Virus record (IMG/VR): IMGVR_UViG_3300044961_000678
Location: 1-37,565 of that record
Length of the DNA: 37,565 nucleotides
DNA from: a virus
Reading direction: 5' to 3' (one strand)
This document shows positions 100 to 37,565 of this stretch, one piece after another. Position numbers and translations under genes: made by a program. The notes below the pieces were generated by a model. The model made no database searches. It saw only the letters and a program-made list of their open reading frames with translations, and was not told the origin of the DNA. Each line of letters begins with the position of its first letter. Positions within the stretch are counted from its first letter, which is position 1.

Positions 100-360
100 C
101 TTGACCTCTTCGGGTGAGAGCCCGGTGATGATGGCATACCGGGTTGGGCGGCCGCGCCCGCCGCCGGGGGCCCACACCAGATCGCCATTCGCCCGAAGCG
201 CTGCCACTGCTTGCCGGGCATTTCGCAGTTGGCAACGGGCCAGATGGGCGATCTGCTCGCCGCTGATCGCCACAATGCCGCGATCATCGGCTTCCATTGC
301 CAGCACGAGCAGGATCGTACGGGCGAGTCCGGTTGCCGATGATTGATATATTCGTTTCAT
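1..360 (-). CDS. Replication initiator, O-like, N-terminal part (continues across the joint)
   Basis: This is the first 120 codons of a gene that runs off position 1 and resumes in frame at 37474, ending at 36944; joined as a circle it would be about 296 residues. It starts at ATG 358-360, overlapping the methyltransferase stop as ATGA, so translation is probably coupled. Residues about 10-80 form a winged-helix-like region (LARTILLVLAMEADDRG, then GEQIAHLARCQLRNARQAV and a basic GGGRGRPTRY wing), as in phage and plasmid initiators. Residues 88-120 are three 11-residue repeats ending in QISDL, encoded by the 33-bp iterons. By analogy with lambda O the N-terminal domain would bind the iterons and the C-terminal part would contact the loader encoded next. 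No homology search supports this. Confidence 0.7.
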   Translation of the reverse strand, partial: MKRIYQSSATGLARTILLVLAMEADDRGIVAISGEQIAHLARCQLRNARQAVAALRANGDLVWAPGGGRGRPTRYAIITGLSPEEVKQRISDLQISDLHQNSDLQISDLHQNSDLQISDL

Positions 361-1082
361 ACGACCACCTCAAACATGGCATGCTGCTCGACCGGCGGCG
401 CTGGAGGCGCTGGAGGCGTTTCGACCTGGGCCAGCCGATCGAGGGCGTCGAAAATATCGAGGCCGTCGATCTCATTCCCGACGCACACCCATCCGGGGCG
501 TACTCGTCGGGCGAAGAGCTCAAGATATGGCCCGTCGAGCAGTTGCTCGATTCGGCTTTGAATGAGCTCAGGCTTTTGGCTGTGCCGGGTCATGGGGGCC
601 AGCAGCGCCGCCGGATTGTCAGGGTCGAGCTCGATCGTTGCCACAACCTGGCTCACATCCCTGCGTACGCGCCGAATTTTTTTGCGAGGGACTATTCCGA
701 TCGGCTTGCCGGGTATCTTTGGAATCCCGGTATTCACGCAGAGCCAAACATCTTCAGTATTGGCCCGCGTCCAGTAGCCAAGCCCTTGAAAAAAATCGCC
801 CGAATCGTAGAGTTTTACCCAGGTGAAAGCTTTTGTCACGTAGCTAAACCCCCAGCGCCGCATCATGCGGTAGGTCTCGGGGAGCAACGGCGCACATACC
901 CACAGGAACAGCACCGTACCACGGTAGCTCACCTGTTGGATGCTCGATCCAAGATCCGCAAGGCGCTCCCAGGACATGATGTCATAGTGGCCCTCGGCGC
1001 TCTTGTCGTCAATGCCGCTCGGTCGCTTCCCCCACGCCTTGAAGGGCACCGGGGGATCGGCAATGATTACAGGGAATCGCAT
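357..1082 (-). CDS. MT-A70-family DNA N6-adenine methyltransferase
   Basis: The 241-residue product fits the MT-A70 family, which transfers a methyl group from S-adenosylmethionine to adenine N6. The catalytic motif near the start reads ADPPV (residues 8-12), where the family normally has an aromatic residue (DPPW, DPPY or DPPF). Later landmarks are LFLWVCAPLLPE, GFSYVTKAFTWVK, YWTRANTEDVWLCV and the HSQKPELIQSRIEQL segment that precedes the closing strand. The start at 1082 has CAGGGG upstream and lies 16 bp inside the end of the sigma gene; the stop overlaps the initiator start. It may protect phage DNA from restriction or mark the origin. The Val for aromatic substitution could alter activity. 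Confidence 0.82.
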   Translation of the reverse strand: MRFPVIIADPPVPFKAWGKRPSGIDDKSAEGHYDIMSWERLADLGSSIQQVSYRGTVLFLWVCAPLLPETYRMMRRWGFSYVTKAFTWVKLYDSGDFFQGLGYWTRANTEDVWLCVNTGIPKIPGKPIGIVPRKKIRRVRRDVSQVVATIELDPDNPAALLAPMTRHSQKPELIQSRIEQLLDGPYLELFARRVRPGWVCVGNEIDGLDIFDALDRLAQVETPPAPPAPPVEQHAMFEVVV

Positions 1083-1849
1083 GTGTAGCCCCTGACTGCT
1101 AATAGTTCGCGAATGCGAACGAAGGCGAGTTGCTCGATCTGCCGCACCCGCTGACGGGTGAGATTGAGCTCCTGCCCGATCTGATTGAGCGTGTGCGGGC
1201 CTTCCGTCCCGATGCCGAATCGCATACAAATCACCCGCTGCGAGCGCTCATCAAGGCAGCTGATCACATGGTGGATGTCGAGCGATTGCATATGCTCGAC
1301 CGCCTCCTCTTCGACTGAGGCGGGGCCGGCGATAAACTCGCCGAGCGTTCGCGTATCTTCGGGCCGGGCCGGGGCATCCATCGAGAGGATCGCCCGTTCG
1401 TGCATCCGCACGGCCCGACCTACATTTTTATTTTTGAATTGTCCTTCCGGGTCAACCGGCCCACCGCTGCGCCGCTTGGCGCGACGCATCGTTTCATGCA
1501 CATGTGCGGGCAAAGCGATCAGCCGATCGTTTTCCACAAACCGTTGCATCTTGTGGCGGATCCACGAATCCGCATAGGTCAAAAAATGGTGCCCGGAATT
1601 GATATCGAACTTTTCGATGGCTCTCACCAGACCGATCCATCCCTCATTGGTGAGATCTTCGATGTTGATCCCGGGGACGAGATACTTCCGCGCAACTGCG
1701 AATACATAGCGCATATGTGCCCGGGTGAGGGCGTCAAGCGCCTCGGCCTTCGCCTCGGCTGAGGCGCTCGGGTCTTGGTAGGTGGCAATATGCGCCATAA
1801 TTTGCTGCTTCGGCAGCATTTCGCTAAGTTCTTGGTGTGGTATTGGCAT
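1067..1849 (-). CDS. Phage-encoded sigma-70 family RNA polymerase sigma factor
   Basis: This 260-residue protein has sigma region 2 at about residues 45-110 (RYVFAVARKYL, EDLTNEGWIGLVRAIEKFD, FLTYADSWIRHKM). Region 4 lies near the C terminus (CLDERSQRVICMRFGIG, then TLNQIGQELNLTRQRVRQIE, the helix-turn-helix that reads the -35 box). Region 1 is absent and a charged linker replaces most of region 3. It resembles a shortened primary-type sigma rather than an ECF sigma, because region 4 is RpoD-like. The start at 1849 has AAGGGA seven bases upstream. It follows the HTH gene by 11 bp. It probably redirects host RNA polymerase to phage promoters, perhaps those of the late operon, where I found no clear sigma-70 promoter. 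Confidence 0.88.
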   Translation of the reverse strand: MPIPHQELSEMLPKQQIMAHIATYQDPSASAEAKAEALDALTRAHMRYVFAVARKYLVPGINIEDLTNEGWIGLVRAIEKFDINSGHHFLTYADSWIRHKMQRFVENDRLIALPAHVHETMRRAKRRSGGPVDPEGQFKNKNVGRAVRMHERAILSMDAPARPEDTRTLGEFIAGPASVEEEAVEHMQSLDIHHVISCLDERSQRVICMRFGIGTEGPHTLNQIGQELNLTRQRVRQIEQLAFVRIRELLAVRGYTCDSL

Positions 1850-1860
1850 GGTTGGTTCCC

Positions 1861-2094
1861 TTACGGCGCTGTGCGCCGACTCGAGCGCACAGCGCCGAAT
1901 GCTAGGCGATCTTCCTGCGGTCGGATTGTTGTCCGACTCTCGATAAACTCTCGCCAAGCCGACTCCGGGATCCGGCGCCCGCCGGGGAGTTGCACGAATT
2001 TCAATCCGTGATTAGCCATCCAGTTGTAGACAGCCTCTCTTGATACGTTTGCCATTTGGCAAATGTCCTGAATGGTATAAAGCTTTTCGGTCAT
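1861..2094 (-). CDS. Small helix-turn-helix regulator (excisionase/MerR-like)
   Basis: The product is 77 residues. Residues 6-50 form a MerR/excisionase-type helix-turn-helix (YTIQDICQMANVSREAVYNW) followed by a GGRRIP wing. The start at 2094 is chosen because GGAGGG lies just upstream. It is the first gene of the leftward operon and sits directly below the divergent promoter pair at 2126-2194, so it may regulate both directions. A second small HTH gene at 3683-3871 has the same layout (divergent promoters, similar fold). Without an integrase in the window, a regulator role is more likely than an excisionase role. Confidence 0.75.
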   Translation of the reverse strand: MTEKLYTIQDICQMANVSREAVYNWMANHGLKFVQLPGGRRIPESAWREFIESRTTIRPQEDRLAFGAVRSSRRTAP

Positions 2095-3927: not shown

Positions 3928-3945
3928 GAGATTACAAATTCGCTA

Positions 3946-3974
3946 TTGACAAAATATGTAAGCTATTGTATAAT
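3946..3974 (+). promoter_or_regulatory. Rightward consensus promoter
   Basis: TTGACA (3946-3951), 17-bp spacer, TATAAT (3969-3974): a perfect match to the sigma-70 consensus, 43 bp ahead of the 4018 gene. Confidence 0.88.
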
Positions 3975-4017
3975 GATGTCAATGATAATAATGTTAATGA
4001 TATAGAGGAGGCTAGAT

Positions 4018-4491
4018 ATGAACATTCAATCCATTATTGATACCGTCGCTGTGGTCGCCAACGACAGCAACACGTACGCTGTTGTGGGCGGCACATTCAG
4101 CGAGATGTTGGCCTTTGTCAAAGGGATCGAAGGGCGGCGGTGGAACGCCGCAAACAAGTCCTGGGAGATCGCCATTTCCCCTGCCGATCTGGCAACCCTT
4201 GCCGATGAAGCGGAATTTCGATTGGTCTCTTCCAGCAATCTGCTGGAAGAGGAAATGCGCCAGGTGGTCGCTGCGCAGCAGCGCATCTTGGCTGCAAAGG
4301 AATCAATCGAAGCCAAGATTGCTTCGCTCAATAAGGAAATTGGGAAGTATTCCCGAGGGAGTGTCAGCTCCGTGAAGCGGAGCTTATCGTTGGAAAGTTT
4401 CCGCCTGACTCGGGCGCTGGAATATGCCAGCGTTCCGGCAGAACAATTGACAGAGCAGCAGATGCGGGCGCTGCTGGCAGTCGAATTTTAG
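4018..4491 (+). CDS. Unknown protein with HARP-like N-terminal motif
   Basis: The 157-residue product starts after a strong AGGAGG. Residues 20-55 (FVKGIEGRRWNAANKSWEIA) resemble the HARP-type motif of SMARCAL1-like proteins, where a Phe-x-x-Lys and Gly-x-x-Trp pattern forms a small nucleic-acid-binding module; the resemblance is from memory. Residues 75-115 look like a helical coiled coil (EEEMRQVVAAQQRILAAKES). The gene is less GC-rich than the surrounding region, which suggests separate acquisition. It heads a transcript from the perfect promoter at 3946-3974. Confidence 0.72.
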   Translation: MNIQSIIDTVAVVANDSNTYAVVGGTFSEMLAFVKGIEGRRWNAANKSWEIAISPADLATLADEAEFRLVSSSNLLEEEMRQVVAAQQRILAAKESIEAKIASLNKEIGKYSRGSVSSVKRSLSLESFRLTRALEYASVPAEQLTEQQMRALLAVEF

Positions 4492-5910: not shown

Positions 5911-6759
5911 TCATTCGCCTACCAGACAACTGACCGTACTGCCCAGCAACGGGCGGTAGATCGTGATCGTCTCGCCGGGTTGCGGCGCGGTCGCAGGCAC
6001 CGCGCCGGCGAACTGATCTGGATGCATCAAATATTCGCATGGCATCCAGCCATGCTCCTCTCCCCACTCGTCGGCCCGAATGATAAATTGCTGCAAGGCC
6101 TCGTAGAGGCCCTCTTCGGTTTGGCGACGCAGCCAGATGACGTCGCCGTTCATCATCTGGTAGGCTTTTCCTACGCGCACGGCAGCAGCCGAGCGTTCCT
6201 TTGGCGTCAGCGGGCGCTCGACCAGGCACGTTTGTGCCCGGTGCATGAGGCGCAGCGCGGTTCGGAGATTGTCACGAACCGCCGTGCACGTTTGTTCACG
6301 GTACATTCGTTCCAGCGCGGTGCGATGCACCACGCGAGCGCCGAGATAATTGAGATCTTCGACAAAATAATCTTCGAAAGCACAGAACACTTTTACCACT
6401 TTGCCATTACTGGCATCGTGGTACAAGTCTGCCAGCGCGGACGCGCCCATTGTCCGCGCTTCGGCCTCCGCTTCCCCGATGTTGCCCGGATTGATGTTCC
6501 GGGCATACCACCAGTGACGGTCGCCCTCTGGTTGCTGCAAAAAGATGCCTGCCGCCTCGCCGGCGATCCGGCAGGCTATCTCCTGGCGCCATTCGAATGG
6601 CGCCAGGAGATCTAGCAGCCATGCGAGATCTAAGCAATCCGGGTGGTGATCCGCGATTTCCTCGAGCGAGCGGGGCTCGTCCCCCGCCCACTCGAGAAAC
6701 TCCTCAATCTCCTCTGGGCAGGCATTGTGGTTTTCTAGCCATGTTTGATCAATTTTCAT
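5911..6759 (-). CDS. P-family paralogue P1, unknown function
   Basis: This is a 282-residue member of a family found six times here. The order is an N-terminal motif (MKIDQTWLENHNACPE, then EWAGDEPRSLEEIADHHPD and DLAWLLDLLAPF), a middle INPGNIGEAEAEART and ALADLYHDASNGKV, and a C-terminal CEYLMHPDQFAGAV and TIYRPLLGSTVSCLVGE. The N-terminal WL-x4-AC pattern recalls a short domain common in phage hypothetical proteins. The protein looks soluble and acidic. AGGAGG precedes the ATG. It is 66 bp after P2 in the same direction, behind hairpin 6781-6802. A 34-bp perfect palindrome (6578-6611) lies inside the coding sequence. Function unknown. Confidence 0.85.
   Translation of the reverse strand: MKIDQTWLENHNACPEEIEEFLEWAGDEPRSLEEIADHHPDCLDLAWLLDLLAPFEWRQEIACRIAGEAAGIFLQQPEGDRHWWYARNINPGNIGEAEAEARTMGASALADLYHDASNGKVVKVFCAFEDYFVEDLNYLGARVVHRTALERMYREQTCTAVRDNLRTALRLMHRAQTCLVERPLTPKERSAAAVRVGKAYQMMNGDVIWLRRQTEEGLYEALQQFIIRADEWGEEHGWMPCEYLMHPDQFAGAVPATAPQPGETITIYRPLLGSTVSCLVGE
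6578..6611. repeat. 34-bp perfect palindrome inside P1
   Basis: ATCTCCTGGCGCCATTC (6578-6594) is followed directly by its exact reverse complement. An identical palindrome lies in P6 at 12205-12238, while P2-P5 carry a shorter inverted repeat (CCATTCGA arms) at the same place. It encodes the residues around APFEWRQEI. Confidence 0.9.
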
Positions 6760-6780
6760 TGGTTTCCTCCTTGCCGCTTC

Positions 6781-6802
6781 GTGGGCGGCTGTGGCCGCCC
6801 AC
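6781..6802. repeat. Hairpin between P2 and P1
   Basis: GTGGGCGGC, loop TGTG, GCCGCCCAC. The matching hairpin between P5 and P4 (10179-10200) has the same arms and the loop CACA, its reverse complement. It lies in the leader of P1, just upstream of the ribosome-binding site. Confidence 0.85.
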
Positions 6803-6825
6803 AGAAATGTTGAGGGCTAAATTCT

Positions 6826-7677
6826 TCATTCGCCTACCAGACAACTGACCGTACTGCCCAGCAACGGGCGGTAGATCGTGATCTCCTCGCCCGGTTGCGG
6901 CGCGGTCTCTTCGACCGCGCCGGCGAACTGATCTGGATGCATCAAATATTCGCATGGCATCCATGCATATTCGACATCCCACTCGTCGGCCCGAATGATA
7001 AATTTCTGCAAGGCCTCGTAGAGGCCCTCTTCGTTTTGGTGCCGCACCCAGAAAACGTCGTCGCCTATTAGATAGGCTTTCCCCACCCGCTCGGCTGCTG
7101 CCGAGCGCTCTTCCGGGGACAGCGGGCGCTCGACCGGGCACGTCTGCGCGTGCTCGATGACGCGCAGCGTGGTTCGGAGATTGTCACGAATATCCGTGCG
7201 CAAACTGGCACGGTACGTTCGTCTCATCCAGATTCGGATGTTGTTATTATCCCGAATCTCGCTATCGTCTTTTGTCTCGAGATCCTCGATAATCTCGAGC
7301 AAACCGTAGAGAACATCCTCCACGTCGCCATTACTGGCATCGTGGTACAAGTCCGCCAGCGTCAACGCGCCTATTTTCCGCGCTTCTGCCTCCGCTTCTG
7401 CGATGTTGCCCGGATTGATGTTCCAGGCAAACCGCTCGTATCCCACGGATTGCCGAAAAAAGATGCCTGCCGCATCGCCGGCGAGGCGGCAGGCTATGTC
7501 CATTCGAATATCGAATGGAGCGACCTTGTCTATGATCCATGCGATATCGAAGGAATCCGGGTGGTGCTCCGCAATCTCCTCCAGTGAGCGGGGTTCGTTC
7601 CCCGCCCAATCGAGAAACCGCACAATTCCTTCTAGGTACGCATTGTGTTGTTTGAGCCAGGTTCGATCGATTTTCAT
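6826..7677 (-). CDS. P-family paralogue P2, unknown function
   Basis: At 283 residues this is the first gene after the promoter-leader module at 7678-7776. It matches P1 closely at both ends (EPRSLEEIAEHHPDSFDIAW and TIYRPLLGSTVSCLVGE). It differs in the middle, where it carries an acidic insertion (LLEIIEDLETKDDSEIRDNN). Hairpin-loop swaps relative to other copies change APFEYR to APFDIR, GAVSSTAP to GAVEETAP and CRIAGEA to CRLAGDA. AGGAGG precedes ATG 7677. No enzyme motif is visible. Confidence 0.85.
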   Translation of the reverse strand: MKIDRTWLKQHNAYLEGIVRFLDWAGNEPRSLEEIAEHHPDSFDIAWIIDKVAPFDIRMDIACRLAGDAAGIFFRQSVGYERFAWNINPGNIAEAEAEARKIGALTLADLYHDASNGDVEDVLYGLLEIIEDLETKDDSEIRDNNNIRIWMRRTYRASLRTDIRDNLRTTLRVIEHAQTCPVERPLSPEERSAAAERVGKAYLIGDDVFWVRHQNEEGLYEALQKFIIRADEWDVEYAWMPCEYLMHPDQFAGAVEETAPQPGEEITIYRPLLGSTVSCLVGE

Positions 7678-7776
7678 TGGTTTCCTCCTTGCCGCGCGAT
7701 AGCGCGCGTGTGGCCCCCACGAGGGGGTGTTTGAATATCATGACGCAATTATAGCACAATCATAATGCAATGTCAA
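7678..7776 (-). promoter_or_regulatory. Promoter-leader module, copy 1 (P2-P1 operon)
   Basis: Reading leftward: perfect TTGACA (7776-7771), 17 bp, perfect TATAAT (7753-7748). The leader then forms CCCCC-TCGT-GGGGG (7727-7714) and a CGCGC-GATA-type hairpin (about 7707-7691) before the AAGGAGG site. Three nearly identical copies serve P3, the P5-P4 operon and P6. The downstream part of the repeat seen in other copies (CGTCGATATG and the GAAGCGAGG hairpin) is found here only at 8149-8191, as if the 7904 gene had been inserted. Confidence 0.88.
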
Positions 7777-7813
7777 CGGGTATTTTTATGACAAAACTGT
7801 CATCAAATAGTTC

Positions 7814-7889
7814 GATCAATTATCAAATTGCCTATTGATCATAGCGAAAGTTGTGGTATGATGTTATTATCAATAATCCGATTGATAAT
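7814..7889 (+). promoter_or_regulatory. Rightward promoter with two inverted-repeat operators
   Basis: TTGATC (7835-7840), a 16-bp spacer and TATGAT (7857-7862). GATCAAT (7814-7820) and ATTGATC (7834-7840) form an inverted repeat covering the -35 box; ATTATCAA (7866-7873) and TTGATAAT (7882-7889) form another just below the -10 box. An ATGACA/TGTCAT repeat lies at 7788-7803. This arrangement suggests repression by a dimeric regulator. Confidence 0.65.
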
Positions 7890-7903
7890 GAAAGGAACCC
7901 ACA

Positions 7904-8146
7904 ATGACCACCGTAACCATCCGCATCACCCGCGAACGCTTGGCGGCCATGGACGACCACGAGATGGTCGTCTATGGAACCCCGAACACGTGGGAGCCCT
8001 ATTGGGCCTCACGGCCAAGCTTTATGTATGACAAGTGCCTCGCAACGCCACGCGATTTCTATGAGTTTTACGATCTCGATCGTGAAGCCTGTGACGATGA
8101 CGAGGATGAGATTCTCGAGTTGACGGTTGTCGTTGATGAGGAATAA
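7904..8146 (+). CDS. Small acidic protein, unknown function
   Basis: The 80-residue product starts with AAAGGA eight bases upstream. The N-terminal part (TTVTIRITRERLAAMDD) could be strand and helix; the C-terminal end is very acidic (ACDDDEDEILELTVVVDEE), as in DNA mimics and some anti-defence proteins, but that is only a resemblance. It has its own operator-flanked promoter and is opposite in direction to the P genes on either side. It splits the promoter-leader repeat in two, which suggests insertion. Confidence 0.75.
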   Translation: MTTVTIRITRERLAAMDDHEMVVYGTPNTWEPYWASRPSFMYDKCLATPRDFYEFYDLDREACDDDEDEILELTVVVDEE

Positions 8147-8160
8147 CGTCGATATGTCAT

Positions 8161-8191
8161 GGAAGCGAGGGGGGGATACCCCCTCGCTTCC
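8161..8191. terminator. GAAGCGAGG hairpin, copy 1
   Basis: GGAAGCGAGGGGG pairs with CCCCCTCGCTTCC across GGATA. Related hairpins lie at 9629-9656, 11477-11505 and 12516-12543. No T-run follows. It sits between the 7904 and 8207 genes. Confidence 0.6.
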
Positions 8192-8206
8192 GCTAGGAGC
8201 AAAACC

Positions 8207-8428
8207 ATGAAATTGAACGTGAATCGCTATTACGATCTTACCTGGAATGCGGAGGATCAAGAGGGGAAATGGACAAGCGATGATGAAGGCTGTCTCGTGC
8301 TCCTCTGCCAGGAGCACGGTGACTTGCTGGAAGACGCCGGCGAAACCCAGTGGGCCGGCAACGGCGACTATGGCCACCTGTGTCGCTGTGAGTATCCCGG
8401 CTGCCTCATCAATAATGGTGTCAAATGA
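8207..8428 (+). CDS. Small Cys-rich protein, unknown function
   Basis: The 73-residue product starts at ATG 8207 with AGGAG seven bases upstream. Four to six cysteines with a histidine (GCLVLLCQEHGD, then HLCRCEYPGC) suggest a small zinc-binding fold. There is no membrane segment. It probably shares the transcript from the promoter at 7814-7889. Its stop overlaps the start of the 8425 frame as ATGA. Confidence 0.72.
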   Translation: MKLNVNRYYDLTWNAEDQEGKWTSDDEGCLVLLCQEHGDLLEDAGETQWAGNGDYGHLCRCEYPGCLINNGVK

Positions 8429-8631
8429 CCGGGAATAAGCGCAGTGGCAATCGAGGGAGCCGCCGTGGCCGCCGGCTGCGGCGCTCCTTCACGCTCCCTC
8501 AGGAAGTGGCGCTTGCTTTTCGCTTGTGGTGTTGGGCGATCTATGGTCGCCCAACGACACCCGAAGAAGAGCAGCAGGAGATCGCGCGGATCGTACAGGC
8601 AGCGATTGCCCAATCCGCGCCGGAAGCATAG
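8425..8631 (+). CDS. Small basic protein spanning repeat copy B
   Basis: The 68-residue frame begins by ATGA overlap with the preceding gene and has no clear ribosome-binding site, so it would depend on coupling. The N terminus is very basic (NRGSRRGRRLRR). The rest (LPQEVALAFRLWCWAIYG, then QQEIARIVQAAIAQSAPEA) reads like a short helical protein. The same frame exists in repeat copy A from 5432, with residues altered where hairpin loops are swapped. Copy D keeps only the EIARIVQEAIARSAPEA part. Confidence 0.5.
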   Translation: MTGNKRSGNRGSRRGRRLRRSFTLPQEVALAFRLWCWAIYGRPTTPEEEQQEIARIVQAAIAQSAPEA

Positions 8632-8710
8632 TCATCATCGCCCACATCCTCTCAGGGATGTGGGCGATTTCTTTCATCGCTGACGCGCTGCGGCCATTCC
8701 AGGTCGAGCG
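8497..8710. repeat. Hairpin repeat, copy B
   Basis: It holds the same three hairpins as copy A: GGGCGA arms 8534-8552, GCGCGGATC arms 8584-8620 and CGCCCACATCC arms 8640-8667. Loop TCTATGG (8540-8546) is the reverse complement of CCATAGA in A. The 16 bases at 8596-8611 are the reverse complement of 5534-5549. The right flank also carries the AAVRYAALDLEWPQRVSD fragment on the minus strand. From 8632 to 8796 I see no intact gene. Confidence 0.8.
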
Positions 8711-8796
8711 CGGCGTACCGTACCGCTGCTTCGCATTGCGGCGCTTCATCCCACCGCGAAAGCGTGTGGGCTTTCGCGCCAAGGTTTCTGTAAAAG

Positions 8797-8828
8797 AATG
8801 CCACCGGCTCGCTTGAGCCGGTGGCATT
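8797..8828 (-). terminator. Intrinsic terminator of the tRNA gene
   Basis: AATGCCACCGGCTC pairs with its exact complement across a 4-base loop. Read leftward, the stem is followed by a T-rich stretch (CTTTT). It lies 8 bp past the tRNA 3' end. Confidence 0.75.
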
Positions 8829-8836
8829 TGATTTGA

Positions 8837-8909
8837 AACGAGAGACGGGGTTCGAACCCGCGACATGCACCTTGGTAAGGTGGTGCTCTACCAACTGAGC
8901 TACTCCCGC
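8837..8909 (-). tRNA. tRNA-Gly-like gene, anticodon ACC
   Basis: The minus strand folds as a cloverleaf of 73 bases: acceptor GCGGGAG with CTCTCGT (one G-U inside, one at the end), D-arm GCTC-AGTTGGTA-GAGC, anticodon loop TTACCAA, T-arm GCGGG-TTCGAAC-CCCGT, and U as discriminator. The body closely resembles bacterial tRNA-Gly(GCC), but the wobble base is A, giving anticodon ACC for GGU codons. The outermost anticodon-stem pair is C-C. The CCA end is not encoded. It has its own promoter and terminator. Whether it is charged and used is unknown. Confidence 0.9.
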
Positions 8910-8918
8910 AATGCCATT

Positions 8919-8947
8919 AGTATAGCATAGCTCGGTTGGGAAAGCAA
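8919..8947 (-). promoter_or_regulatory. Promoter of the tRNA gene
   Basis: Reading leftward: TTGCTT (8947-8942), 17 bp, TATACT (8924-8919), 9 bp before the tRNA. Confidence 0.7.
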
Positions 8948-9006
8948 ATCGTTAGCTCGAAAACCCTTTCGGCAGGTGGATCTGCCGATCGGGGCAGGCT
9001 ATCATG

Positions 9007-9043
9007 GTGCGGCGCACCTGAACAAATGCCAGGTGCGCCGCAC
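9007..9043. terminator. Hairpin downstream of P3
   Basis: GTGCGGCGCACCTG (9007-9020) pairs exactly with 9030-9043 across a 9-base loop. It starts 6 bp past the P3 stop in the leftward direction and probably ends that transcript. No T-run follows. The rest of 8948-9006 holds only a small CGGCAG/CTGCCG hairpin. Confidence 0.6.
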
Positions 9044-9048
9044 TATCC

Positions 9049-9501
9049 CTATGCTTCGGGCACGCTTCGCAACGCCTCGCGGAACATTGTGTCGATTTGC
9101 TCCGGCACGCGGCCGTCTCTTGTGAAATAATTTACGTATGTGAACATACAGTTTCTTATTCTGCCAGCGCTGGCAGAATCACCAAGCATTTTGAGGCCTT
9201 CCGTCAGGCATTTCCACTTGACGCCGGCTCTGGCGAGCCGCATATAATCTTTTTCGCCTACCGGCGGCCAATCGTACCGATTGAATTCGCCGGTCGCCGC
9301 GTTGACCATATCGCAGGCCAACGCCATTCGAATGTCGAATGGACAAAGGAGATCTATCAGCCATGCGAGATCTTTCGCATCCGGGTAGTGATCCGCGATT
9401 TCCTCGAGTGAGCGGGGCTGCTCCCCCGCCCACTCGACAAACCGCGCAATCCTCTCTGGGCAGGCATTGTGGCTTTTTAGCCACGCTACATCGATTTTCA
9501 T
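9049..9501 (-). CDS. P-family paralogue P3, short form
   Basis: The product is 150 residues. It keeps the family N terminus (WLKSHNACPE, QPRSLEEIADHYPDAKDLAW, LLCPFDIR) but then diverges (residues 75-130). It ends in PEQIDTMFREALRSVPEA, which is shared only with P4. The C-terminal half of the long members (YHDASNG to CLVGE) is missing. AAGGAGG precedes ATG 9501, and a copy of the promoter-leader module lies just upstream. A 22-bp perfect palindrome (9158-9179) is inside the coding region. It may be a recombinant rather than a simple truncation. Confidence 0.8.
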   Translation of the reverse strand: MKIDVAWLKSHNACPERIARFVEWAGEQPRSLEEIADHYPDAKDLAWLIDLLCPFDIRMALACDMVNAATGEFNRYDWPPVGEKDYMRLARAGVKWKCLTEGLKMLGDSASAGRIRNCMFTYVNYFTRDGRVPEQIDTMFREALRSVPEA

Positions 9502-9599
9502 GTCATTCCTCCTTGCCGCGCGATAGCGCGCGTGTGGCCCCCACGAGGGGGTGTCTGATATCATGACGCAATTATAGCACAATCATAATTCAATGTCAA
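9502..9599 (-). promoter_or_regulatory. Promoter-leader module, copy 2 (P3)
   Basis: TTGACA (9599-9594), 17 bp, TATAAT (9576-9571), then the CCCCC-TCGT-GGGGG leader hairpin, the GCGCG hairpin and AAGGAGG. It is almost identical to the modules at 7678, 11351 and 12387. Confidence 0.88.
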
Positions 9600-9628
9600 T
9601 GGGTATTTTTTTACGTCGATATGTAATG

Positions 9629-9656
9629 GAAGCGAGGGGGGATACCCCCTCGCTTC
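9629..9656. terminator. GAAGCGAGG hairpin, copy 2
   Basis: GAAGCGAGGGGG, loop GATA, CCCCCTCGCTTC. It lies between the P4 stop and the P3 promoter, so it may end the P5-P4 transcript. The whole hairpin is the reverse complement of the copy at 12516-12543. Confidence 0.65.
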
Positions 9657-9677
9657 GTTGTCCAGATGCGCCGCACC

Positions 9678-10157
9678 CTATGCTTTGGGCAGAGCAACGC
9701 TCCGCAACGCCTCGCGGAACATTGTGTCGATATGCTCCGGCACGTCTTTGTCAAATTTGCTGACGAATGTCAACAATGTCTCGAGGACGCGTCCTCGGGA
9801 CGCTTCCTCGTAGACATAGATGAGATCCTCCGACGATGCTCGCCAATTGAGCGCAAATTCCAGGGCTTCCCCGATGTTGCCCGGATTGATGTTCCGGGCA
9901 AACCACCAGTGGCGGTAGCCGTAGCCTGGTCGCCGCGAAAAGATGCCTGCCGCCTCGCCGGCGATCTGGCAGGTTACGGCCATTCGATATTCGAATGGAG
10001 CGACCTTTTCTATGAGCCATGCGAGATCGAAGGAATTCGCGTGGTGCTCCGCGATTTCCTCGAGCGAGCGGGGCTCGTCCCCCGCCCACTCAACAAACCG
10101 CGCAATCACCTCTGGGCACGCATCGTGGCTTTTTAGCCACGCTACATCGATTTTCAT
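9678..10157 (-). CDS. P-family paralogue P4, short form
   Basis: The product is 159 residues. The N-terminal domain is typical (WLKSHDACPEVIARFVEWAG, DEPRSLEEIAEHHANSFDLAW) with INPGNIGEALEFALN, but the long C-terminal part is replaced by an ending shared with P3 (PEHIDTMFREALRSVALPKA). At the CCATTCGA inverted repeat (9980-9998) it reads APFEYR where P2 reads APFDIR, because the TAT loop is inverted relative to ATA. It lies 57 bp after P5, behind a hairpin, and is probably the last gene of that operon. Confidence 0.8.
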   Translation of the reverse strand: MKIDVAWLKSHDACPEVIARFVEWAGDEPRSLEEIAEHHANSFDLAWLIEKVAPFEYRMAVTCQIAGEAAGIFSRRPGYGYRHWWFARNINPGNIGEALEFALNWRASSEDLIYVYEEASRGRVLETLLTFVSKFDKDVPEHIDTMFREALRSVALPKA

Positions 10158-10178
10158 TCTTTTCCTCCTTGCCGCTTC

Positions 10179-10200
10179 GTGGGCGGCCACAGCCGCCCAC
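10179..10200. repeat. Hairpin between P5 and P4
   Basis: GTGGGCGGC, loop CACA, GCCGCCCAC. It has the same arms as 6781-6802 and the reverse-complement loop. Confidence 0.85.
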
Positions 10201-10214
10201 AGAAATGTTGAGGG

Positions 10215-11027
10215 CTAAATTCCTCCTTCGCCTACCAAACAATTGAACGTCCTGCCCAGCAACGGGCGGTAGATCGTGACCATCTCGCCGGGTTGCGGCG
10301 CGGTCGAAGAGACCGCGCCGGCGAACTGATCTGGATGCATCAAATATTCGCATGGTTCCCATGCATATTCGACACCCCACTCGTCGGCAATCATAATAAA
10401 TCGCCGCAAGGCCTCGTAGAGGCCCTCTTCGGTTTGGCGACGCAGCCAGATGACGTCGCCGTTCATCATCTGGTAGGCTTTTCCTACGCGCTCGGCTGCT
10501 GCCGCGCGTTCCTTTGGCGTCAGCGCCCGCTCGACCGGGCACGTTTGTGCCCGGTGCATGAGTCGCAGTGCGCGTCGCAGCGCGGTTCGGAGATTGTCAC
10601 GCACCTCGCGAGCGTCGATTGAATCGAGATCCACAAAATCTTCGAAAGCACAGAGCACTTTCACCACGTTGCCATTACTGGCATCGTGGTACAAGTCCGC
10701 CAGCGCGGACGCTTTCATCTGCCGCGCTTCTGCCTCCGCTTCTGCGATGTTGCCCGGATTGATGTTGAAGGCAAACCGCGCGTGGCGGTCGCCCTCTGGT
10801 TGCTGCAAAAAGATGCCTGCCGCCTCGCCGGCGACCTGGCAACCTAAGTCCATTCGAATGTCGAATGGACAAAGGAGATCTAGCAGCCATGCGAGATCTT
10901 TCGCATTCGGATGGTACATAGCAATCTCCTCCAGCGAGCGGGGCTGCTCCCCCGCCCACTCGGAAAATCGCGCAACCCCCTCTGGGCAGGCATCGTGTTG
11001 TTTGAGCCAGGTTTGATCGATCTTCAT
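10215..11027 (-). CDS. P-family paralogue P5, unknown function
   Basis: This 270-residue full-length member has the usual motifs (EQPRSLEEIAMYHPNAKDLAW, INPGNIAEAEAEARQM, LADLYHDASNGNVVKVL, CEYLMHPDQFAGAV). It ends with TFNCLVGEGGI in place of the usual TVSCLVGE. It lies 14 bp after the 102-residue gene and 57 bp before P4. The ribosome-binding site is AAGGGG rather than AAGGAGG because this copy has no promoter-leader module of its own. The GAAGA loop at 10306-10310 gives GAVSSTAP. Confidence 0.85.
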   Translation of the reverse strand: MKIDQTWLKQHDACPEGVARFSEWAGEQPRSLEEIAMYHPNAKDLAWLLDLLCPFDIRMDLGCQVAGEAAGIFLQQPEGDRHARFAFNINPGNIAEAEAEARQMKASALADLYHDASNGNVVKVLCAFEDFVDLDSIDAREVRDNLRTALRRALRLMHRAQTCPVERALTPKERAAAAERVGKAYQMMNGDVIWLRRQTEEGLYEALRRFIMIADEWGVEYAWEPCEYLMHPDQFAGAVSSTAPQPGEMVTIYRPLLGRTFNCLVGEGGI

Positions 11028-11041
11028 TCTTTTCCCCTTCC

Positions 11042-11350
11042 CTAAATTGAGCGCTCAATAATTTCGCGCTCAATGATGTCTATAGCCAAGCTTTGACGCG
11101 GATCTTTTCTGTAATGAATGAGCAATTTTGCTAATTCACTGATTGATGCTTGTTCTACAATAGAAACAAGCGAACCGTCTTTTGTTGGGTTTTTCCCCCG
11201 CTCCACGAGCGGAGAAGACTCCGCCGGAATTTCGATTTCCTGAAGAGCTCTATCAACAATTTCGCATTCAATTGCCCGCAATCTTGCGAGACGATCTGGG
11301 TGCGAGCTATTCCACCAGTAGTCAAGTTGTTTGCCAAGCTCCTTGATCAT
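11042..11350 (-). CDS. Unknown protein, 102 residues
   Basis: ATG 11350 follows AAGGAGG and the copy-3 promoter-leader module, so this gene heads the P5-P4 operon. It is unrelated to the P family in sequence. It looks helical and charged (KELGKQLDYWWNSSHPDRLA, ISELAKLLIHYRKDPRQSLA). It is visibly less GC-rich than the P genes, which suggests it was captured behind the promoter module. No motif is recognised. Confidence 0.75.
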   Translation of the reverse strand: MIKELGKQLDYWWNSSHPDRLARLRAIECEIVDRALQEIEIPAESSPLVERGKNPTKDGSLVSIVEQASISELAKLLIHYRKDPRQSLAIDIIEREIIERSI

Positions 11351-11447
11351 TGGTTCCTCCTTGCCGCGCGATAGTGCGCGGGTGGCCCCCACGAGGGGGT
11401 GTCTGATATCATGACGCAATTATAGCACAATCATGATGCAATGTCAA
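11351..11447 (-). promoter_or_regulatory. Promoter-leader module, copy 3
   Basis: TTGACA (11447-11442), 17 bp, TATAAT (11424-11419), then the two leader hairpins and AAGGAGG. It drives the 102-residue gene, P5 and P4. Confidence 0.88.
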
Positions 11448-11476
11448 TGGGTATTTTTTTACGTCGATATGTAATG

Positions 11477-11577
11477 GAAGCGAGGGGGGTATCCCCCCTC
11501 GCTTCGTTGTCCAGGCGCCGCACCCTATGCTTTGGGCAGAGCAACGCTCCGCTCATGCCCGCGCGGCGGCCGCCGGC
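11477..11577. repeat. GAAGCGAGG hairpin copy 3 and P4-like fragment
   Basis: 11477-11505 is a symmetric hairpin (GAAGCGAGGGGGG, TAT). At about 11526-11551 the minus strand carries the last codons of a P4-like gene (RSVALPKA then stop) with nothing in front. 11550-11577 is a GC-rich hairpin (GCGCGGCGGCC arms). This is a junction of recombined pieces between P6 and the next promoter. Confidence 0.7.
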
Positions 11578-11597
11578 CGCCGCGCGGCAGATGCCCT

Positions 11598-12386
11598 TCA
11601 TTCGCCTACAATGCAACTGACCGTACCGCCCAGCAACGGGCGGTAGATCGTGATCTCCTCGCCCGGTTGCGGCGCGGTCGAAGAGACCGCGCCGACGAAC
11701 TGATCTGGATGCATCAAATATTCGCATGGCTCCCATGCATATTCGACCCCCCACTCGTCGGCGATATACGCCGACTTCCAAAGAACCTCGTAGAGGCCCT
11801 CTTCGGTTTGGCGACGTACCCAGAAAACGTCGCCGTCTAGCTCATAGGCTTTTCCCACCCGCGCGGCAGCAGCCGCGCGTTCCGCTGGCGTCAGCGCCCG
11901 CTCGACCGGGCACGTCTGCGCGTGCTCGATGAGGCGCAGCGCGGTTCGGAGATTGTCACGAACCACGCGAGCGCCGATTGACTCGAGATCCACAAAATCT
12001 TCAAAAGCACAGAACACTTTTACCACTTTGCCCTTAGCTGCATCGTGGTACAAGTCTGCCAGCGCGGACGCTCCCATTGTCCGCGCGTCGGACTCCGCTT
12101 CCCCGATGTTGCCCGGATTGATGTTGAAGACATACCGCGCGTGGCGGTCGCCCTCTGGTTGCCGCGAAAAGATCGCGGCCGCCTCGCCGGCGATCCGGCA
12201 GGCTATCTCCTGGCGCCATTCGAATGGCGCCAGGAGATCTAGCAGCCATGCGAGATCTTTCGCATCCGGGTGGTACATAGCAATCTTCTCGAGCGAGCGG
12301 GGAGTCTCCCCCGCCCACTCGACAAACCGCGCAATCCCCTCTGGGCAGGCGTTTTGGTTTTGTAGCCAGGTTCGATCGATCTTCAT
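11598..12386 (-). CDS. P-family paralogue P6, unknown function
   Basis: This 262-residue member is transcribed alone from the copy-4 module. Motifs are WLQNQNACPEGIARFVEWAG, SLEKIAMYHPDAKDLAW, INPGNIGEAESDART and CEYLMHPDQFVGAV. It reads LYHDAAKGKV where the others have ASNG, and ends TVSCIVGE. The 34-bp palindrome of P1 is present at 12205-12238, and the AGCA (11868-11871) and GAAGA (11680-11684) loops show which orientation it carries. No catalytic residues are recognised. Confidence 0.85.
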   Translation of the reverse strand: MKIDRTWLQNQNACPEGIARFVEWAGETPRSLEKIAMYHPDAKDLAWLLDLLAPFEWRQEIACRIAGEAAAIFSRQPEGDRHARYVFNINPGNIGEAESDARTMGASALADLYHDAAKGKVVKVFCAFEDFVDLESIGARVVRDNLRTALRLIEHAQTCPVERALTPAERAAAAARVGKAYELDGDVFWVRRQTEEGLYEVLWKSAYIADEWGVEYAWEPCEYLMHPDQFVGAVSSTAPQPGEEITIYRPLLGGTVSCIVGE

Positions 12387-12800: not shown

Positions 12801-12830
12801 AGATAAAAATGTATGCTGATGGAGATAATT

Positions 12831-14009
12831 ATGAGTCTATCAACCTATCAAAAATCGATGTTTCCGTATTTCGGTGGCAAATCCTTGGCAGCGCCGCTTG
12901 TCTGGTCATTGCTTGGCGATCCTGCGCACTATGTTGAGCCTTTTTTTGGCAGCGGCGCGGTGCTGCTGTTTCGCCCGCATCCAGCAAATAGATCGAATTT
13001 TTCTGAAACGGTCAATGATTTCGACGGATTTATCGCCAATTTTTGGCGAGCTATGCAATATGATGCGCAAGCTACCGTCGAATTTGCTTCGTGGCCGGTC
13101 GTCGAGGCTGAGCTGCACGCGCGGCATATTGCTATTATCCAATGGATGCGCGACGGCAATGCGGAACGGTTGGCTGGCGATGTGCAATATTATGATGCGC
13201 GGATTGCAGGGTATTGGTTGTACGGAATTTGCGCCTGGATCGGCTCTGGTTGGGGCCACGAGCAGAGCGGCCCCTGGTGGCCTGATGCTGACGGTCGTCT
13301 GGTCAAGCGTTCGGGCAATTCAGGCGTGACTCGAAAACTACCACATGTGAGCGCCGATGGTCAGGGCGTGCATCACTGCAAGGCACGTGAGCCAGGAGTG
13401 ACTCGACAACTACCACGTGTGGGCGCCGATGGTCAGGGCGTCCATCACTGCAAGGCACGTGAGCCAGGCGTGACGCGAAAACTACCACATCAGGATGAGG
13501 ATTTAGCTGATATCATCGAGGCTGATTACGCGGCCTCAGACGAATACCATCCTATGACGATGCCCGAAATTCGCCGGTGGGCCCATTGGCTCCAAGCGCG
13601 TATGCGTCATGTGCGCGTGGCGAACGGTGATTGGCAGCGGATTTGTAGCTCCAGCGTATTGCGCCCAATGCCTAGGGGAGGCAAGCCCCATGTGTCGGGC
13701 ATCTTCCTTGATCCGCCGTATAAACACAGCGAGAGATCAGCGCAATTGTATCGAGAGGATCAAGACATTGCATCTGACGTACGCGAATGGTGCCTACAAA
13801 ATGGCAACAATTCTCAATATCGGATAGTGCTGGCGGGGTTCGCCGGCGAGGGACACGAAATATTAGAAAAAAATGGCTGGAGCGTGTATGAATGGTACGA
13901 ACACCAATTGTTCAGGAGCGGCTATGGGCACCAGCAGCATCGAGAACGTCTGTGGGCGTCGCCGCATTGCTTGCTTCCAATGTTGCCGCTGGATGCGCTC
14001 TGGGAATAA
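12831..14009 (+). CDS. D12-class DNA N6-adenine methyltransferase (Dam-like)
   Basis: The 392-residue product has the D12-class order: MFPYFGGKS near the N terminus, the S-adenosylmethionine motif VEPFFGSGAV (residues 35-44) and catalytic DPPY (294-297). GATC is the usual target of this class. Residues about 160-225 form an inserted region with two full 24-residue repeats and a partial third (VTRKLPH, GVHHCKAREPG). From memory, similar RQLPH-type repeats occur in other phage enzymes of this class. The start at 12831 has GGAG six bases upstream. It stands alone between the P region and the late operon. It may methylate the many GATC sites, including those in the origin. Confidence 0.87.
   Translation: MSLSTYQKSMFPYFGGKSLAAPLVWSLLGDPAHYVEPFFGSGAVLLFRPHPANRSNFSETVNDFDGFIANFWRAMQYDAQATVEFASWPVVEAELHARHIAIIQWMRDGNAERLAGDVQYYDARIAGYWLYGICAWIGSGWGHEQSGPWWPDADGRLVKRSGNSGVTRKLPHVSADGQGVHHCKAREPGVTRQLPRVGADGQGVHHCKAREPGVTRKLPHQDEDLADIIEADYAASDEYHPMTMPEIRRWAHWLQARMRHVRVANGDWQRICSSSVLRPMPRGGKPHVSGIFLDPPYKHSERSAQLYREDQDIASDVREWCLQNGNNSQYRIVLAGFAGEGHEILEKNGWSVYEWYEHQLFRSGYGHQQHRERLWASPHCLLPMLPLDALWE
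13326..13492 (+). repeat. 72-bp tandem repeats inside the methyltransferase gene
   Basis: Two full 72-bp units (13326-13397 and 13398-13469) are followed by a partial third. The copies are nearly identical, differ by only a few bases and keep the reading frame. The encoded segment lies where target recognition usually resides in D12 enzymes. Confidence 0.88.
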
Positions 14010-14320: not shown

Positions 14321-14674
14321 ATGGGAGCAATCGACCCTATCCCCGTTGTCGATCCATCAATGGCCTACCGCGAGGCGCTCACCGCCTACGGGGCCATGGT
14401 CGATGAGTTGCGCGGTGCGCTGGGGGCTATCGATTTGCCCGACGATCAGCACCTTCGCCTAACGTCTGCGCTCTCGGCGGTTTTTTCCGCTCGGGCCATG
14501 CTCGACCGGGAGCAATACAAGCGCATGGAAGCGCTTATCGTCAATGAGCAGCTCGAAATGGCCCGGATGGTTGATTCCGTCATCGCCCGTATCGGCGAGA
14601 TCGAGCATGAGCAAGCGACTCATGTGAAAAAGCTCGATCAGATCATTGATCTGTTGGTTGGCAGGAGAAAATGA
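14321..14674 (+). CDS. Helical protein at the head of the late operon, unknown
   Basis: The 117-residue product is almost entirely helical, with a C-terminal coiled coil (IGEIEHEQATHVKKLDQIID). There is no membrane segment. Its stop overlaps the next start as ATGA. The pair could form a complex, since this protein is a soluble coiled coil and the next is membrane-anchored. The ribosome-binding site lies in the hairpin at 14279-14320. Confidence 0.72.
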   Translation: MGAIDPIPVVDPSMAYREALTAYGAMVDELRGALGAIDLPDDQHLRLTSALSAVFSARAMLDREQYKRMEALIVNEQLEMARMVDSVIARIGEIEHEQATHVKKLDQIIDLLVGRRK

Positions 14675-35583: not shown

Positions 35584-35976
35584 TCAGCGTACTTCGATCC
35601 GATATTCAATATGCGGATATCGCTCGACAAATAATCGAGCCTTGATGCGCCATGCTTCGGTTTGGGTTGCGTTGCCGCCCTTCACATCCTCAGCGATCAA
35701 CCTGCCCGCTTCCCAATATTGGAAATCGGCTTCATAGCTGATCGCTGGCCATCCGGGTCGCGCTGACAACAACTCATATTTTGGATGGAACATGAGCTCT
35801 GTTATCCGCCCGGCCCGCTCCAACAGGATGAGCTCGCCGAGTCGTGTGGCCTCGGCGATCGAGTCGGCCCTCCCCCAGCCGGGAATGTCTGTAGCCCTGG
35901 CATTGTATTTGTTCTTCCGCTTCGCCTGCCGTTTCAGCAGCTGGCGGTATTCGTCAAGACTTATTTCTTCGGGCAT
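35584..35976 (-). CDS. DUF1064-type PD-(D/E)XK nuclease
   Basis: The 130-residue product fits DUF1064, a PD-(D/E)XK-like family: NKYNARATDIPGWGRADSIA, then EATRLGELILLERAGRITEL, HPKYELL, ISYEADFQYWEAGRLIAEDV and KG. The Glu, Asp and Glu-Asp-Val-Lys positions are in the expected order for a metal-dependent nuclease. ATG 35976 has GGAG five bases upstream. It is coupled to the zinc-ribbon gene (23-bp overlap). It may resolve replication or packaging intermediates. The gap 35458-35583 holds a CTGGCGG/CCGCCAG palindrome (35515-35528) and no gene. Confidence 0.8.
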   Translation of the reverse strand: MPEEISLDEYRQLLKRQAKRKNKYNARATDIPGWGRADSIAEATRLGELILLERAGRITELMFHPKYELLSARPGWPAISYEADFQYWEAGRLIAEDVKGGNATQTEAWRIKARLFVERYPHIEYRIEVR

Positions 35977-36214
35977 TGCTCCATCCCTTCCCCTGGGGGC
36001 ACGTGGCAAAATGGTTTATGCCCCATTGCTCGTTCTTGATGATTCGGATGGTGCTGGCGTCGATCGGCATTGCGGCCCCTTTGGCGGTCGATATCCACAC
36101 CACCGAAGCACCGCACGATCGGCATGTGCCCCTTCGGGCTCCCACGGGGATCCGCTGCTCGCCCATTTTGGGCATGTCTGCATCCCCAGCGAACAAATCC
36201 AGTTGTTCAGTCAT
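35954..36214 (-). CDS. Small zinc-ribbon protein
   Basis: The 86-residue product has CRSCGASVVWISTAKG and then NHFATCPQGKGW; the two CxxC/HxxxxC halves would hold zinc. Small proteins with this CxxC...W...MPID...C layout are common in phages and usually unassigned. It starts by ATGA overlap with the loader gene. The setting in the replication operon suggests DNA contact. Confidence 0.78.
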   Translation of the reverse strand: MTEQLDLFAGDADMPKMGEQRIPVGARRGTCRSCGASVVWISTAKGAAMPIDASTIRIIKNEQWGINHFATCPQGKGWSNARRNKS

Positions 36215-37050
36215 TGGCGGATCCTTCGATAGCTACTGATCGGCATCCAAACGTTGACGGCCTGGGCCAACCTATCGGCAATGCGCGGCCCGAGCAATTC
36301 ATCGAGCTGATCAATATCGTGATTGCTGGTAACCACGGTCGGGCGCTTGAGCCGCTCGTTCGTGACGCGGAACAACCGATCAGCGGCCCATGGGCTGAGC
36401 TTTTCGGCCCCAATATCGTCGAGAATGACCAGATCCGCATCAAGCACGGCGGCCATGGCCGCGTCCGGATCTGCCCCGCCTGGGCGGAGATCGTCGAGCA
36501 GGCCCGGCACGCTGCGATAGACCACTCGACGGCCGAAGCCGGCCGCGTGCAACGCGATCGCCGCTGCTAGATGCGATTTGCCCGCCCCGGGCGAGCCGTG
36601 CAAAAACACCCAGCCGATCGGATCCTGGGCGTACGTCCATGCCGTTCGGTAGGCCCTGGCGAGTTGCTGCTTCTGTGCCGCAACGGAGACTCGGCCCATC
36701 TCCCCGAGATCGAGCTCGACCAACGGGCGATCTTGCTGGAACGTGGCAAATGTGCAATGGCTTAACCCGGCGAGCTCGTCGCGCAATGCGGCGACTCGCT
36801 GCTCGCGCTGAGCCTGGCCAGCGCGACCACACGCGCATGCCTGCAATTTGCCGAAATCAGGATGGCCCGAAGGCACATTCCACAAAAACCACCCAGAGCC
36901 ATCGCATCCACACGGCTCCGGGCCGGGACGCGCTGGGGTCAAACTAGGAAACGTTCGCGGCAAAGCGCTCCGCCTCTTCGTTGAGTTGCCGAATTCGCTC
37001 GGCGACTCGGGGATCGGCCCGAGTCCCGGCATGCTGCTGAGATCGATCAT
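36211..37050 (-). CDS. DnaC-like helicase loader (AAA+ ATPase)
   Basis: The 279-residue product has a Cys-rich segment (C47, C49, C72, C74), then an AAA+ core: Walker A HGSPGAGKSH (151-160), Walker B ADLVILDDIGAEK (205-217) and sensor VTSNHD (240-245). The LDDIG signature is typical of DnaC and IstB/DnaC-like loaders, which place the replicative helicase on an origin. AAGGAG precedes ATG 37050. The gene begins 107 bp inside the initiator gene in another frame, so translation is probably coupled. No phage helicase is seen, so it likely recruits the host enzyme. Confidence 0.88.
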   Translation of the reverse strand: MIDLSSMPGLGPIPESPSEFGNSTKRRSALPRTFPSLTPARPGPEPCGCDGSGWFLWNVPSGHPDFGKLQACACGRAGQAQREQRVAALRDELAGLSHCTFATFQQDRPLVELDLGEMGRVSVAAQKQQLARAYRTAWTYAQDPIGWVFLHGSPGAGKSHLAAAIALHAAGFGRRVVYRSVPGLLDDLRPGGADPDAAMAAVLDADLVILDDIGAEKLSPWAADRLFRVTNERLKRPTVVTSNHDIDQLDELLGPRIADRLAQAVNVWMPISSYRRIRQ

Positions 37051-37565
37051 GGCGTATCTCCTTCGGTTGCATGCGGGACGGCTCGTGATACCAGTCCAGC
37101 ATGCCGTCAACATTCAGGCTATTCGCATATTTGCGCCGCCAGGCGGCGATCGTGGCCTGCCAGCGATCGAGATCGTTGACCGGCGGCCGCTTGATGCCAT
37201 TGGGCAGCGTGTAGCCCTGGGCAATGGCCGCTGCCTGCACTCGATTGGGGCGAATGCCGATCACGGCTTTATAGGCCATACACGCCGGGTGGAACTGGTT
37301 TGGATCTTTGATGATCTTTTCCGCGATGATCTTTTCCGCTGGGGGAGATGGGGCGGGGATGGGCGGATGCCCATCGCCCAAAAAAGCAATGCCCACATGA
37401 TCATGATCATACGTATGATCATGATCATATAAGGGATAGTGCAGATCACTGATCTGGTGATCACTGTTTCGCTCCAGATCACTGATCTGGAGATCACTGT
37501 TTTGATGCAGATCACTGATCTGGAGATCACTGTTTTGATGCAGATCACTGATCTGGAGATCACTG
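36944..37565 (-). CDS. Replication initiator, O-like, C-terminal part (continues across the joint)
   Basis: This is the same reading frame as 1-360: it enters from the iterons (37565-37442), passes through the 32-bp palindrome and ends at 36944. The C-terminal domain includes PPIPAPSPPAEKIIAEKIIK, then KAVIGIRPNRVQAAAIAQGY, LDRWQATIAAWRRKYANSLN and RVAERIRQLNEEAERFAAN. A GTG at 37396 could be read as a start, but no ribosome-binding site is seen and the frame is open far upstream. In lambda O the C-terminal part binds the P loader; here the DnaC-like gene follows. Confidence 0.68.
   Translation of the reverse strand, partial: SDLQISDLHQNSDLQISDLHQNSDLQISDLERNSDHQISDLHYPLYDHDHTYDHDHVGIAFLGDGHPPIPAPSPPAEKIIAEKIIKDPNQFHPACMAYKAVIGIRPNRVQAAAIAQGYTLPNGIKRPPVNDLDRWQATIAAWRRKYANSLNVDGMLDWYHEPSRMQPKEIRHDRSQQHAGTRADPRVAERIRQLNEEAERFAANVS
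37397..37428. promoter_or_regulatory. 32-bp perfect palindrome next to the iterons
   Basis: ATGATCATGATCATAC followed by its exact reverse complement, with four GATC sites and AT-rich sequence. It lies 13 bp from the first iteron and inside the initiator coding sequence (encoding YDHDHTYDHDH). Lambda also has a palindrome and AT-rich stretch next to its iterons. It is the likely unwinding or loader-entry site. Confidence 0.75.
37442..37565. repeat. 33-bp iterons, right end of the joint
   Basis: Units start at 37442 (variant with GGTGATC and a CGCTC end), 37475, 37508 and 37541 (cut at 25 bp by the window end). If the identical 91-bp ends are one segment, the circle holds four units. The in-frame 33-bp length gives 11 residues per unit. 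Confidence 0.85.

Follow-up and report, generated by a model that had tools for sequence, protein, structure and literature searches.

A repeat-bearing linker in a phage initiator gene as the probable replication origin of an uncultured phage

In phage lambda the replication origin is located inside the initiator gene O, whose product uses its N-terminal half to bind four iterons and opens an A+T-rich region of 40 bp (PMC4488673, PMC5043065). The origin oriL of phage SPP1 lies within gene 38, and the phage helicase loader is gp39 (PMC6316719). The present study concerns an uncultured phage represented by a virus record of 37,565 bp, referred to below in its entirety as the window, in which a gene reconstructed across the record ends exhibits a similar layout. 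We propose that this gene encodes the replication initiator of the phage and that its linker coding sequence is the replication origin, a reading to which we assign a probability of about 0.86. The linker repeats are very probably the DNA bound by the replication-start protein that the same gene encodes.

The first and the last 91 bp of the record are identical, and overlaps of 58 and 25 bp match as well because the terminal overlap sits within a 33-bp repeat. The copy at 37475-37565 (minus strand) is an exact duplicate of 1-91, a contig-end overlap inside the repeat array that is removed on circularisation. Collapsing the 91-bp overlap results in a circle of 37,474 bp, in which positions 360-1 and 37474-36944 form a single open frame of 297 codons (296 aa); plain end-to-end joining, with the overlap left uncollapsed, breaks this frame. 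The 5' part (1-360, minus strand, open to the record end) comprises codons 1-120 with a winged helix-turn-helix (wHTH) domain (about codons 1-88) and the first repeats, and the 3' part (36944-37474, minus strand) codons 121-296 and the stop. Since 33 bp correspond to 11 codons, additional whole units leave the frame intact, so that the joint is coherent while the number of units is not fixed: there are four units at an overlap of 91 bp and five or six at 58 or 25 bp. The joined gene is thus secure, and the copy number of its repeats is uncertain because the joint falls within the array. That the gene seems split is due solely to the contig ends, which fall within the repeats; assemblers tend to break a contig at a repeat that exceeds their word size, which would explain the break in this array. 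The GC skew around the joint, which had been proposed as a check, was computed and has no turning point there; its extremes, located at 12.8 kb and 31.7 kb, seem to reflect the coding strand.

The C-terminal domain of the initiator (37079-37297, minus strand) is characterised by two conserved W residues and the motif N..GMLDWY, which reads NVDGMLDWY in the window, and the alignments A1 and A2 show invariant W, W, N, G, M, L, D and W. Taken alone, the wHTH domain is marginal, with 24.1 bits against a cut-off of 24 for Pfam SgrR_N and weak matches to O-like profiles (E 0.02-0.08). It becomes clear through a full-length homologue, the initiator of the viral contig L021, which aligns over most of the length (BLASTP E 7e-10) and itself matches the PHROG O-like initiators (5e-15) and HTH_36 (3e-8). 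The winged-helix N terminus of the original prediction therefore holds by way of this relative, while the accompanying statement that the proteins look unrelated to those of lambda was too strong, given that the closest full-length relative is a PHROG O-like initiator. The window initiator has no match to Pfam PF04492 (Phage_rep_O), and in a profile comparison with lambda O the wHTH similarity was weak (54 columns, hhalign probability 2%) and the C-terminus showed no similarity. AlphaFold models were poor (pLDDT 43-44); the two halves were folded separately, the joined protein being non-contiguous in the window.

The initiator gene is followed by a gene for a DnaC-like AAA+ helicase loader (36211-37050, minus strand; phrog_50 E 1.5e-38, phrog_3277 1.9e-20, IstB_IS21 1.4e-16). 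The protein harbors Walker A and B motifs (GSPGAGKS and LVILDD) and an N-terminal Cys-rich motif (CGC..GHPDFGK..CAC); it is of the DnaC-like/IstB type and does not belong to the lambda P family. Its predicted start is most likely the ATG at 37050 and not position 37113, because an AAGGAG Shine-Dalgarno sequence is located just upstream; this start lies within the 3' end of the initiator gene, resulting in an overlap of 107 bp. Downstream of the loader follows a DUF1064 or phage Holliday-junction-resolvase-like protein (35584-36009, minus strand; PF06356 5e-12, phrog_190 5e-23). The upstream neighbour of the initiator is an MT-A70-type DNA methyltransferase (357-1079, minus strand; PF05063 E 2e-19, phrog_359 9.7e-45), whose stop overlaps the initiator start. 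A phage sigma-70-type factor with regions 2 and 4 (1067-1957, minus strand) is found directly upstream of these two genes.

The linker between the two domains of the initiator consists of four 33-bp units and a 32-bp perfect palindrome. The consensus unit CAGTGATCTCCAGATCAGTGATCTGCATCAAAA is present twice exactly and then in two diverged copies. On the minus strand, positions 1-91 hold iteron 1 (91-59), iteron 2 (58-26) and most of iteron 3 (25-1, extending into 37474-37467), followed by the diverged iteron 4 (37434-37466, minus strand), in which GATCAC replaces GATCTC and the GATC is kept. A perfect dyad TGATCT-CC-AGATCA occurs in units 1-3 (3/4), and a second one, CAGATC-AGT-GATCTG, in all four. 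The 25-bp core of the unit has no other occurrence in the window at up to three mismatches, with 0 expected from shuffles. Scans of viral contigs with the iteron sequence yielded no match, and the iteron sequence thus looks lineage-specific. A second iteron array was not found in the window, only an isolated single copy of the 15-bp iteron dyad at 14639-14653 (CAGATCATTGATCTG, one mismatch), located at the end of the ORF 14321-14674 near the early/late boundary; it may represent another site for the initiator, comparable to SPP1 oriR, or may be due to chance.

The palindrome ATGATCATGATCATACGTATGATCATGATCAT is located at 37397-37428. The longest palindrome in 60 Markov genomes measured 22 bp, so that a length of 32 bp is far beyond chance. 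Two identical 34-bp perfect palindromes at 6578-6611 and 12205-12238, in duplicated genes, document that a long palindrome by itself is not special to this position. Together with the adjoining TTAT (to 37432) the linker palindrome forms a stretch of 36 bp with 72% A+T beside the iterons, in a genome of 59% G+C, which makes it a candidate unwinding element; other genome regions exceed it in A+T content, above all 3945-4043. At 74% over 100 bp (80% over 60 bp), the latter has the highest A+T content in the genome; it is located upstream of the ORF 4018-4491 and contains a 15-bp repeat in 2.2 copies. The original prediction of a frame continuing in phase across the joint, with 33-bp GATC-rich iterons translated into 11-residue repeats, a 32-bp palindrome, a C-terminal domain and a subsequent DnaC-like loader gene, is thus borne out in all of these elements.

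The 34-bp palindrome (ATCTCCTGGCGCCATTCGAATGGCGCCAGGAGAT) is shared by two members of a separate gene family at 5911-12386 (minus strand). This region comprises about six paralogous ORFs (5911-6759, 6826-7677, 9049-9582, 9678-10190, 10215-11027 and 11598-12386, all minus strand) starting with MKID.TWL...C...I.RF.EWAG..PRSLEEIA. None of the two that were scanned has a Pfam match.

Searches of viral and genome collections with the whole initiator, the loader or the sigma factor retrieved no close relatives, and a terminase search retrieved only a 7-kb contig (L003) with an identical protein. Among phage records, the whole initiator matched only Ruegeria phage 45A6 (E 0.2), which was left out, and the loader and the L021 initiator had no match. 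Relatives were found by a degenerate DNA pattern for N..GMLDWY and then by a profile of the C-terminal domain. This resulted in eight distinct viral relatives (L010, L017, L018, L019, L020, L021, L022 = L023 and L024 = L025), all of which possess an N-terminal part, a linker and the C-terminal domain with GMLDW(Y/F/A) that the window initiator has in common with them. A helix-turn-helix match was obtained in six of the eight, in L018 and L020 weakly or by an initiator profile, and was absent from L023 and L024. In L019 a Pfam Phage_rep_O N-terminus (5e-29) is fused to the GMLDW domain, and in L018 a Phage_rep_org_N N-terminus. The candidate L026 (Clostridiales) was rejected as a chance hit, as only 17 residues match and a wHTH is missing.

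Downstream of the initiator, L018 and L021 possess a gene for a DnaC-like loader. The corresponding gene of L010, L020 and L023 encodes a DnaB-like helicase (in L020 recognised by inspecting the translation), and L024 has no recognisable replication gene at this place. In L017 and L019, short proteins downstream of the initiators contain only a Cys-rich motif (C..C...GH..FG[KR]..CP.C) that resembles the N-terminus of the DnaC-like loader of the window, and they lack the AAA+ domain; perhaps they represent a free-standing loader adaptor. The relatives accordingly resemble the window in the combination of wHTH, repeat-bearing linker and GMLDW domain, and in most of them a replication gene is located downstream, whereas their iteron sequences are unrelated and none is GATC-based.

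The repetition of the linker DNA was quantified as the number of near-identical 18-bp pairs per gene (at least 15 matches, 9-259 bp apart) and compared with 200 synonymous-codon shuffles of each gene and with 38 control ORFs from the same loci. Repeats score in all nine initiator genes (the window and its eight relatives), in the linker that separates the N-terminal from the C-terminal domain; in L024 an additional repeat pair lies in the C-terminal part. The observed count was reached in none of the 200 shuffles for the window, L010, L017, L018, L021 and L024, and in two or three of 200 for L019, L020 and L023, with the provisos that the L018 repeat is partly low-complexity and that those of L023 (5 hits) and L024 are weak. 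The nine initiators differ from the 38 control ORFs (Mann-Whitney p = 2e-5), even though a few control genes of the window, notably the D12 methyltransferase, are repeat-bearing too. As a positive control, lambda O has a score of 10 with a shuffle maximum of 5 at codons 115-144, and its iterons are annotated at 39034-39118 of NC_001416. Phage phi80, with annotated gp15 binding sites, scores in the linker as well, and so do nine of ten further O-like genes, the exception being phiEt88. Six downstream genes score 0. The DNA repeats located in the initiator gene between the DNA-binding and the C-terminal domain are constrained as DNA. Some relatives have copy spacings that are not all multiples of three, such as L010 (17, 24, 22 and 23 bp) and L017 (33, 22 and 23 bp); out-of-frame spacings are found in four relatives (L010, L017, L018 and L019), and the presence of copies in different frames indicates that selection acts on the DNA and not on the peptide in these relatives.

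These observations bear directly on the idea that tandem duplication simply extended a low-complexity protein linker, that the repeats have no function at the DNA level and that the origin is elsewhere, for example at 3945-4043. Every copy in the window is indeed in frame, and the stretch at 3945-4043 is much more A+T-rich and has a 15-bp repeat of its own. Codon usage argues against this explanation, since the Ser codons of the repeat are always the rare AGT (8/8, whereas AGT makes up 6% of the Ser codons of 16 control genes); the Asp codons are GAT in 12 of 12 cases (65% in the same controls). A mere protein linker would moreover have to account for a DNA repetition above all synonymous shuffles of the window gene, for out-of-frame copies with unrelated peptides in the relatives and for the equivalent linker position of the lambda O iterons, and we regard it as quite unlikely. 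Even less likely, in our view, is that the array is not the origin but an operator through which the wHTH protein autoregulates the early operon. Proteins with a wHTH and dyad sites are often regulators, and the domain matches the Pfam regulator families SgrR_N, MarR and HTH_36, but the sites are located about 270 bp into the coding sequence, past any promoter that could serve the gene, and sites arranged in an equivalent way constitute an origin or a region of initiator binding in lambda, phi80 and SPP1. The array may have a dual role as operator and origin.

The least probable alternative, to which we give hardly any credence, is that the joint is an assembly artefact, that the two ends merely stop in similar repeats and that the 296-aa gene does not exist. 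The overlap is placed entirely inside a tandem repeat, the analysis is based on the contig sequence, and the iteron-sequence scans of viral contigs revealed no second contig that spans the joint. Against this, one end encodes a wHTH N-terminus lacking a C-terminus and the other a C-terminal domain lacking an N-terminus, the joined protein aligns near full length with the intact L021 initiator, and its domain order matches that of eight other viruses.

With the linker as the probable origin, initiation can be modelled on the lambda and SPP1 schemes. The N-terminal winged helix would bind the 33-bp iterons located in the gene that encodes it; a dimer is the probable binding form, given the perfect dyads in every unit. 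Occupation of the array by initiators would put strain on the adjoining A+T-rich palindrome and cause it to open, and the C-terminal GMLDWY domain could then recruit the DnaC-like loader encoded by the next, overlapping gene. The loader would finally place the host DnaB helicase onto the opened strands.

A conspicuous property of the linker is its GATC content. Three sites in each unit and four in the palindrome add up to 16 GATC within about 190 bp; 16 in 200 bp is the maximum in a genome that is GATC-rich as a whole (505 observed, 410 expected from trinucleotides). In addition to the MT-A70-type enzyme, the phage encodes a D12-class N6-adenine DNA methyltransferase (12813-14009, plus strand; PF02086 E 1.3e-6, phrog_56), which is 36% identical, at 96% coverage, to a phage protein with the annotation DNA adenine methylase; a comparison with solved structures gave no match. 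Within its coding sequence, at 13321-13490, the D12 gene has an in-frame tandem repeat with a unit of 72 bp (24 aa) and a copy number of 2.4. RctB of Vibrio cholerae requires full methylation of the GATC sites within its 11- and 12-mers (PMC2865523), and the two systems are alike in that GATC is present in every initiator-binding repeat of oriII (PMC2865523) and in every predicted iteron of the window. They differ in that oriII is a chromosomal origin outside the initiator gene, and that the methylation dependence is known there and hypothetical here. The GATC saturation, the phage methyltransferases and the RctB precedent make a methylation-controlled phage origin conceivable. That the D12 enzyme methylates the GATC sites and thereby licenses or times initiator binding, as at oriII, is nevertheless rather improbable in our judgement; this reading rests on a coincidence of features, and none of the relatives has GATC-based iterons. 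Across the whole window GATC and CGATCG are enriched, and TTAA is strongly depleted (15 sites, where equal base use would give about 147; the 59% G+C explains part of the deficit), suggesting an influence of host restriction or codon context.

Our analysis extends the lambda/SPP1 plan to an uncultured phage lineage and suggests that an in-gene origin is the regular arrangement among initiators of a group with an uncharacterised GMLDWY C-terminal domain. The linker peptide is poorly conserved, yet DNA repeats keep recurring in the linker. In-linker repeats flag a likely phage origin straight from the sequence. Repeat arrays at contig ends can conceal such an origin, as in the present record, and the GATC saturation provides a testable link to methylation. 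The layout with repeats inside the initiator gene is known from lambda, and its recurrence across this group of uncultured phages is shown here; the finding is ordinary in kind and useful in extent.

The order of an initiator gene with internal iterons, a palindrome and a loader gene corresponds to the lambda layout, as predicted, and the linker repeats of lambda O score likewise. Lambda O-ori-P and the window share an initiator with an N-terminal DNA-binding domain, four dyad-bearing iterons in the linker coding region, an adjoining A+T-rich stretch (in the window a candidate element of 36 bp, similar in place and size to the 40-bp element of lambda) and a helicase-loader gene that follows directly and overlaps. 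In contrast to the 19-bp iterons of lambda, the units of the window measure 33 bp and are GATC-saturated; its initiator has no significant Phage_rep_O match and a different C-terminal domain, and its loader is of the AAA+ DnaC-like type, whereas lambda P represents a different family. The designation "lambda-type" hence applies to the layout and the O-like kind of initiator and not to the loader, which is of the kind annotated in Lactobacillus phage phiAT3. There, ORF30 and ORF31 combine an O-like initiator with in-linker repeats and an overlapping next gene annotated as DnaC, but the repeat period is 11 bp and the C-terminal domain is of the lambda-O type and not GMLDWY. SPP1 (gene 38 with oriL, gene 39, gene 40) shares the origin repeats in the initiator gene and the phage helicase loader, and differs in its second origin oriR at a distance of 13 kb, a second array being absent from our findings in the window. 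By its architecture, the predicted initiator thus belongs with the O-type phage initiators that contain their own origin.
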